From: Rhodospirillaceae bacterium
Lineage (GTDB): Bacteria > Pseudomonadota > Alphaproteobacteria > GCA-2731375
Direction: 5' to 3'
Assembly: GCA_018660265.1 (NCBI GenBank)
Contig: JABJKS010000051.1
Location: 62,001-126,000 of the forward strand
DNA: 64,000 nt
Shown here: positions 38,866 through 40,829 of the stretch, piece after piece
How the letters are laid out: each line of letters begins with the position of its first letter
How positions within the stretch are numbered: the stretch's first letter is position 1
Notes under the pieces: generated by a model
Told to the model about the DNA's origin: nothing
Databases searched by the model: none
The model's input: the letters and a program-made list of their open reading frames with translations, nothing else
Translations under genes and position numbers: made by a program

Positions 38866-40116
38866 ATGGATTTCAATATTCCCAATGAGATACAAGACAA
38901 ACTTAATGAATTAGATGAATTTATTGAACGGGTAATCAAACCCCTTGAAGCGAAAAATATGAAGTTTTTCGACTATCGACGGGAAAATGAACGTACTGAT
39001 TGGGATAACGACGGCAAGCCCACCAAGGAGTGGGAAAAGCTGTTACGGCAGATGAAGGATCTGGCGGATGAGGCGGGGCATTTGCGCTTTGCCCTGCCAA
39101 AGGAAATTGGCGGGCAGGCGGGTTCAAACCTGGCCATGGCCATGATCCGGGAACATCTGGCGCACAAAGGCCTTGGCCTTCATAACGATCTACAGAACGA
39201 AAGTTCCATCGTCGGTAATTTCCCTCTTGTGCATATGATGTGGCGTTTCGGCACTGATGCCCAAAAGGCGGAATTCCTGCCCGCCCTGATCACCGGCGGG
39301 CGGCGCGTCGGCTTTGGCCTGACGGAGCTGAACCATGGATCGGATGCCACCTATATGGAGACGTCCGCCGTGCGTGATGACGATCATTGGGTCATCAATG
39401 GCAACAAGCGTTTCAACTCGGGCATTCACGAGGCGACCCACGATCTGGTTTTTGCCCGTACCTCCGGCAAACCAGGGGAAGGCATCGGCATCACTGCGTT
39501 CCTGGTGCCGGTCACAGCGCCGGGCTTTGAAGTGGTCAAAATGGACTGGACCTTCAACATGCCAACCGATCACGGCATCGTCGCGGTCAAGGACGTCCGT
39601 ATGCCTATCGATACGGAATCATATCTGGGTGAAGAAGGCGATGGCCTGATCGTGGCGCAAACCTTTTTGCACGAAAACCGGATCAGGCAGGCGGCATCTT
39701 CGGTGGGCGCGGCCCAATTCTGCATTGACGAGGCTGTGGCCTACGCCAAACAGCGCACCACGTGGGGCAAGAAACTCGCCACCAACCAGGCAATCCAGTT
39801 TCCCCTGACGGAGTTGCATACAGAGGCCGAAATGGTCCGCAACCTGGTCTACAAGACCGCCTGGAACCTGGATCAGCAGAACCATATGGCGGTGACCGAA
39901 CAAGTCTCCATGGCTAACTATCGGGCCAACCGTCTGGTCTGGGAAGCCTCCGACCGCGCCATGCAGGTCTTTGGCGGTGAGGGCTATACCCGCAACCAAC
40001 CGTTCGAACACATCTATCGCCACCATCGCCGCTATCGCATTACGGAAGGGGCGGAGGAAATCCAAATCCGGAAAATTGCCGGCCATCTGTTCGGCTTTAC
40101 CGGCAAGAACAGATAG
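38866..40116 (+). CDS. Acyl-CoA dehydrogenase family protein
   Basis: ALPKEIGGQAGSNLAMAMIREHLAHKGLG...VGFGLTELNHGSDATYMETSA...AMQVFGGEGYTRNQPFEHIYRHHRRYRITEGAEEIQIRKIAG. Confidence 0.95.
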   Translation: MDFNIPNEIQDKLNELDEFIERVIKPLEAKNMKFFDYRRENERTDWDNDGKPTKEWEKLLRQMKDLADEAGHLRFALPKEIGGQAGSNLAMAMIREHLAHKGLGLHNDLQNESSIVGNFPLVHMMWRFGTDAQKAEFLPALITGGRRVGFGLTELNHGSDATYMETSAVRDDDHWVINGNKRFNSGIHEATHDLVFARTSGKPGEGIGITAFLVPVTAPGFEVVKMDWTFNMPTDHGIVAVKDVRMPIDTESYLGEEGDGLIVAQTFLHENRIRQAASSVGAAQFCIDEAVAYAKQRTTWGKKLATNQAIQFPLTELHTEAEMVRNLVYKTAWNLDQQNHMAVTEQVSMANYRANRLVWEASDRAMQVFGGEGYTRNQPFEHIYRHHRRYRITEGAEEIQIRKIAGHLFGFTGKNR

Positions 40117-40132
40117 CGGTTACCGTAGCCTT

Positions 40133-40167
40133 GCGGACAATGATATCATTGTGATATCATTGTCCGC
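40133..40167. promoter_or_regulatory. 35-nt palindrome abutting the antitoxin start codon; predicted autoregulatory operator
   Basis: GCGGACAATGATATCA-TTG-TGATATCATTGTCCGC, 16-bp perfect arms, with two internal TGATATCA half-site palindromes. Confidence 0.8.
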
Positions 40168-40410
40168 ATGGGACAGGTAATCATACGAAATCTGGATGAC
40201 AACGTCGTCGGTTTACTAAAAGACCGTGCGGCGCGACGTGGCCATTCTCTGGAGCAAGAGTTGCGGGATATCGTCTGCACGGTTGCGTCGAATGAATCCC
40301 AAAAATTCCTGGATCGATCAGCGGAATTGCGACGCGAATTGAGTGCTTGTATGCAGGGGCGAGAATTCCCAGATCTTACGGCAATGATCCGTGAGGACCG
40401 AGACAGGTGA
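40168..40410 (+). CDS. FitA-like ribbon-helix-helix antitoxin
   Basis: MGQVIIRNLDDNVVGLLKDRAARRGHSLEQELRDIV; followed by overlapping PIN gene. Confidence 0.92.
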   Translation: MGQVIIRNLDDNVVGLLKDRAARRGHSLEQELRDIVCTVASNESQKFLDRSAELRRELSACMQGREFPDLTAMIREDRDR

Positions 40411-40829
40411 GCCTGGTTATCGATGCCTCAATCGTCGTCAATGTCATAATTCCGCAACAGCTAACCGACAGTGCAGTGTTATGGATGGCGCGGCCGATTG
40501 CAAAATTGGCACCTGAATTTCTACGCATTGAAGTTGCGAATGCCCTGTGGAAAAGCGAAGCCGCAGGGTTGCTAAATACGGACCAGGCAGACCGGGCATG
40601 GCGCAATTTGGATGAAAGCGGTATTCGGCTCGTTCCAGATAATGACCATCTGGACCGGGCTCGATCTATCGCACGTGGTCTTCGGCACTCTATATACGAT
40701 TGTCTGTATTTGGCTGTGGCAGAGGCCAATGAAGCGACCTTATTGACGGCGAATCGCCGTCTTTACCGGCTGGCAAAAGATCATGGCGAAAGTGTACAGG
40801 TCGCCTGGATCGAAGATCAGCCCTACTAA
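40407..40829 (+). CDS. PIN-domain VapC/FitB-like toxin
   Basis: MSLVIDASIVVNVIIP...PEFLRIEVANALWK...HSIYDCLYLAVAEANEATLLTANRRLYR; GTG start overlaps antitoxin stop (GTGA). Confidence 0.92.
   Translation: MSLVIDASIVVNVIIPQQLTDSAVLWMARPIAKLAPEFLRIEVANALWKSEAAGLLNTDQADRAWRNLDESGIRLVPDNDHLDRARSIARGLRHSIYDCLYLAVAEANEATLLTANRRLYRLAKDHGESVQVAWIEDQPY

Follow-up and report, generated by a model that had tools for sequence, protein, structure and literature searches.

The perfect inverted repeat that abuts the FitA-like antitoxin gene is, we consider it likely, an autoregulatory operator of the FitAB/VapBC type superimposed on a leaderless sigma-70-type promoter; the palindrome would end at the ATG because operator and promoter are one and the promoter ends at the start codon. 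This reading draws on the geometry of the sequence within the window (the whole stretch of DNA analysed, 64,000 nucleotides), on its conservation in a congener, and on an association seen across the antitoxin family. Most likely, the leaderless layout accounts both for the absent Shine-Dalgarno (SD) sequence and for the position of the palindrome, with no call upon an RNA hairpin.

The operon and its start codon

Following the locus in the direction of transcription (Table 1), we see that the acyl-CoA dehydrogenase-like gene points the same way as the antitoxin gene, with 51 bp between its stop codon and the antitoxin ATG; no terminator-like site was found between the two, and no T-run follows the palindrome stem. 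The antitoxin scores 46.9 bits against PF22513 (cut-off 27) and also aligns with gonococcal FitA (phmmer, E 0.08). The toxin gene lies directly downstream, its GTG start sharing 4 nt with the end of the antitoxin gene and its product scoring 51.6 bits against PF01850 (cut-off 23.6). Judged by its ribbon-helix-helix (RHH) antitoxin, adjoining PIN toxin and operator layout, the operon is a type II toxin–antitoxin system of the FitAB/VapBC kind.

Table 1. Positions of genes, predicted promoter elements and palindrome parts in the window
Feature	Position	Strand	Remarks
Acyl-CoA dehydrogenase-like gene	38869..40116	+	start approximate
-35-like hexamer TTGCGG (orthologue: TTGCAA)	40131..40136	+	18 bp from -10
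Left palindrome arm, 17 bp	40132..40148		includes T40132
Half-site 1, TGATATCA	40141..40148		self-symmetric
Right palindrome arm	40152..40168		last base is the A of the start codon
Half-site 2, TGATATCA	40152..40159		self-symmetric; 11 bp from half-site 1
Predicted extended -10, TG-A-TATCAT	40152..40160	+	ends 7 nt before ATG
Predicted transcription start, A of ATG	40168	+	inferred; C at -1, A at +1
FitA-like RHH antitoxin, 80 aa	40168..40410	+	PF22513, E 2.6e-12
PIN-domain toxin, 140 aa	40407..40829	+	PF01850, E 1.8e-13

All four acidic residues of the PIN domain are required for an active toxin, though not for membership of the family. D6, E42 and D98 are present here and common to the toxin of the congener; the fourth position, which we take to be residue 116 (all four being assigned on the general pattern of PIN domains), is Asn in the window (N116, within TAN; 40752-40754) versus Asp (TAD) in the congener, a replacement that may leave the toxin weakened. 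A search for the toxin across the genome contigs returned three distant loci only, and plasmids yielded a single weak protein relative; the defence-system library gave no match and the phage records no DNA match, on which latter ground a phage origin is rejected.

The antitoxin ATG at 40168 is the only plausible start, as judged from the reading frame, because no in-frame start precedes it and the match to the RHH domain already starts with residue 3. The frame stays open for 24 nt before the ATG and contains no ATG, GTG or TTG; an upstream start served by an SD, which the earlier note had listed among the findings that would refute its reading, is thereby rejected. Its remark that an SD is missing before the ATG holds, the best anti-SD pairing of positions -20 to -4 amounting to -2.1 kcal/mol.

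The palindrome and the predicted promoter

As first described in that note, a perfect palindrome, GCGGACAATGATATCA-TTG-TGATATCATTGTCCGC, occupies positions 40133-40167 (arms 16 bp, loop 3 nt) and its end adjoins the ATG at 40168; T40132 additionally pairs with A40168, lengthening the arms to 17 bp such that the symmetry takes in the A of the start codon. It is the sole perfect inverted repeat of the 64-kb window with arms of at least 11 bp and a loop of at most 12 nt, the longest perfect arms in five shuffles of the window reaching only 9-10. Both the antitoxin family and the paired half-sites point to a role as operator.

A strict consensus scan found no promoter at the site, and for this reason a weighted promoter score, shuffles and a second gene set were used. 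With generic weights rather than ones fitted to this organism, the leaderless position scores 9.8, a value reached by 0.85% of dinucleotide shuffles. The extended -10 consists of the gene-proximal half-site 2 plus the following T, and the -35-like hexamer—a poor one, with 3/6 consensus bases and an 18-bp spacer—sits at the left edge of the palindrome, the inverted-repeat operator overlapping, by sequence, the predicted promoter.

In the mechanism that we infer, two FitA dimers, together with FitB, would occupy the two half-sites one helical turn apart, and the bound FitAB would cover both spacer and -10, so excluding RNA polymerase. Once the repressor is lost, polymerase would use TTGCGG-N18-(TG)TATCAT and begin transcription with the A of the ATG; the resulting mRNA, beginning 5'-AUG, would be translated by leaderless (5'-AUG) initiation, with translation of the toxin following by coupling through the overlap with the antitoxin. 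This model of operator plus leaderless promoter has no need of dyad symmetry in the outer arms.

Conservation in a congener and across the antitoxin family

The operon is present in one of ten congeners (L003), at the equivalent chromosomal site and following the same acyl-CoA dehydrogenase gene, with an antitoxin 59% and a toxin 53% identical to those of the window. The earlier note had proposed comparing the upstream regions of close homologues; in this orthologue (acttGCAAAGTATGATATCGTCGTGATATCATACTTTGC, immediately followed by ATG) the palindrome is kept next to the ATG at the same distance, together with CTTGC and the gene-proximal TGATATCAT with its TATCAT. The upstream half-site reads TGATATCGT, with TATCAT changed to TATCGT, and as a -10 the gene-proximal copy scores 12.7 versus 2.1 for the upstream copy. 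Between window and orthologue, four pairs of the outer arms are changed on both sides, all of them still complementary, and one inner pair of the palindrome is broken. The two antitoxins share their first eleven residues (MGQVIIRNLDD), DNA-reading strand included, and it is therefore probable that the RHH strand does not read the outer-arm bases that have changed.

Behind the acyl-CoA dehydrogenase gene the site varies among congeners (L029-L037): G007 carries a strong stem of the terminator kind plus a T-run, G008 a different RHH-antitoxin-like start (MIDIVVPDVPDFVIESIERRAKINGRTFDQEV), G003 the terminal part of a GMC oxidoreductase gene, and the remaining congeners other sequence again. A toxin remnant in G003 was considered and rejected, since the shared bases also encode that gene end. 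This looks like a variable spot with gain or loss of toxin–antitoxin genes.

Our survey of the family covered 198 usable upstream regions of PF22513 antitoxin genes: 119 from the window's class (set 1) and 79 further genes from the class and phylum (set 2). Promoters were called leaderless-like where a -35/-10 pair with a score of at least 7.5 ended 5-8 nt before the start, the 7.5 cut-off having been chosen after seeing set 1 and all criteria left unchanged for set 2. Such promoters precede 10 of the 40 SD-less genes of set 1 versus none of its 79 SD genes (p 8e-6; shuffle expectation 0.7 and 1.1, respectively), and 3/20 versus 0/59 in set 2 (p 0.014); over both sets, all 13 leaderless-like cases among the 198 are SD-less, with 0/138 for SD genes. 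The association is robust to other cut-offs. The surveyed genes are not wholly independent, L066 resembling L069 and L205 resembling L207; with the window, L003 and L069 left out, set 1 still gives p 2e-4. The 13 genes span several taxonomic families (e.g. L024, L081, L088, L098, L198, L205).

Position of the palindrome follows the same division. The best palindrome ends at -5 to +4 of the ATG in 8/13 leaderless-like genes versus 2/185 others, and L004 (AGGAGGT) and L012 (AAGGAGG), near relatives with an SD, carry the same kind of half-site farther upstream; an operator touching the ATG thus accompanies the leaderless-like layout. The best promoter of SD genes lies mostly 20-35 nt upstream (set 1). 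Leaderless mRNA, one of the two alternatives offered at the outset, is accordingly supported by the spacing of the extended -10, by conservation in the orthologue and by a geometry that recurs only in SD-less relatives.

Several individual members show arrangements of their own. L066 and L069, of another FitA subfamily, are SD-less, with a -10 at the leaderless position and a TGCAATCA/TGATTGCA-type half-site array running into the start codon; in L025 the half-site TGCTATCA, at -7 to +1, overlaps the ATG, and a repressor bound there would cover the start codon. In L018 palindrome arms CCTCCG/CGGAGG lie 36 nt before the ATG, the right arm containing the SD, which would be hidden in a hairpin, if transcribed. 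Half-site spacing across the survey falls into two groups, ~9-12 bp and ~19-20 bp, which suggests two binding geometries among PF22513 antitoxins.

Alternative readings and relation to known systems

It had also been proposed that the palindrome, besides being the operator, forms a hairpin in the RNA at the start codon. For the main transcript this finds no support: the predicted +1 falls on the A of the ATG, after the palindrome, and the hairpin would therefore not be transcribed from the operon's own promoter. What is left of the idea applies to read-through RNA from the acyl-CoA dehydrogenase gene upstream, in which the hairpin would close the antitoxin start, with only own-promoter RNA being translated. 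For the palindrome as RNA, the predicted folding energy is -29.4 kcal/mol (z -5.2), or -40.8 when 16 further nt are included, and the AUG lies at the foot of the stem; nothing resembling a terminator separates the two genes, and outer-arm pairing has been kept through four double changes beside identical antitoxin N-termini. The compensated pairs are, however, seen in only two orthologues, palindrome-templated mutation yields the same pattern, and most leaderless-like relatives have palindromes shorter and weaker than that of the window; that one element serves as promoter, repressor site and start-codon hairpin in read-through RNA we hold to be unlikely. Were such a triple role true, translation would depend on the promoter that made the mRNA, and selection would act on the outer-arm pairing for its structure, not for a sequence that protein binds.

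Possible agents keeping the outer arms symmetric are a hairpin function, FitAB contacts past the half-sites, and palindrome-templated mutation. The last, by which template switching alone would maintain the outer symmetry and only the two 8-bp half-sites and the promoter would be functional, is a tenable suggestion to which we give rather less than even weight; it concerns the outer arms alone and is compatible with a leaderless promoter under an operator. PMC7202029 describes this palindrome-templated process, quasipalindrome correction being an established form of mutation, and the outer-arm sequence does differ between the orthologues while the symmetry stays; yet four paired replacements are a lot for mutation bias alone, and a dyad extension toward the ATG is found also in the unrelated members L024 and L098. 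A short leader, with half-site 1 as the -10, a start ~11 nt upstream of the ATG and SD-independent translation, would be served by TTACCG-N18-TATCAT, which scores 9.5 in the window versus 9.8 for half-site 2; with scores so nearly equal, the choice between half-sites falls to the orthologue only, where this -10 is lost (2.1). The leader would, besides, be without an SD, and we regard it as quite improbable. Perfect palindromes are also typical of REP/MITE-like elements, one of which might have inserted upstream of the antitoxin gene, but the operator core TGATATCA-N3-TGATATCA occurs in single copy in the 5.5-Mb genome (its closest other match, with 2 mismatches, being at control level) and the orthologue keeps position and symmetry though the arms differ. 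For this genome we reject a repeat-element origin on the uniqueness of the core, its probability being negligible; a known RNA family was rejected likewise, the search giving no more than a chance hit that falls far short of the gathering score.

The operon has its closest counterpart in FitAB of Neisseria gonorrhoeae (VapBC family), which shares the RHH antitoxin, the PIN toxin and the inverted-repeat operator upstream, and whose TGCTATCA/TGATAGCA half-sites presumably resemble TGATATCA. Unlike gonococcal FitAB, the operon here has no SD and its operator reaches the start codon; centre to centre, its half-sites are 11 bp apart, as against ~22 bp in the gonococcal system. The FitA–FitB structure was solved on 36 bp of its own regulatory region (PMC3920265), with specific contacts at 6/8 positions of each half (PMC6118392). 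Among toxin–antitoxin transcripts of Mycobacterium tuberculosis leaderless ones predominate (PMC8485053), and the operators of mycobacterial toxin–antitoxin systems usually have their centre at the -10 (PMC9477884); the operon here is like these in its (predicted) leaderless layout and in its operator at the -10, and unlike them in phylum, in promoter class, and in having a perfect palindrome whose symmetry extends to the A of the ATG. Sinorhizobium meliloti has 171 leaderless transcription starts, all at AUG (PMC3616915), a start on the A that is measured there and predicted here. Leaderless toxin–antitoxin operons, leaderless AUG starts, operators on the -10 and FitA–FitB on DNA are each known individually; in the literature searched, the combination of leaderless start and operator in alphaproteobacterial FitA operons, tied to palindrome position, was not found described.

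Most likely, the layout is toxin–antitoxin self-regulation of the ordinary sort, in a compact form that recurs. From it comes a criterion, at the level of sequence, by which a leaderless class of FitA-type operons can be told in alphaproteobacteria, together with a reason for the contact between operator palindrome and start codon in that class; if the reading is true, repression and leaderless initiation would use the same few bases. Leaderless messages have often been proposed to be favoured under stress, and a leaderless antitoxin–toxin operon would therefore be a clean test case of that proposal outside the mycobacteria.
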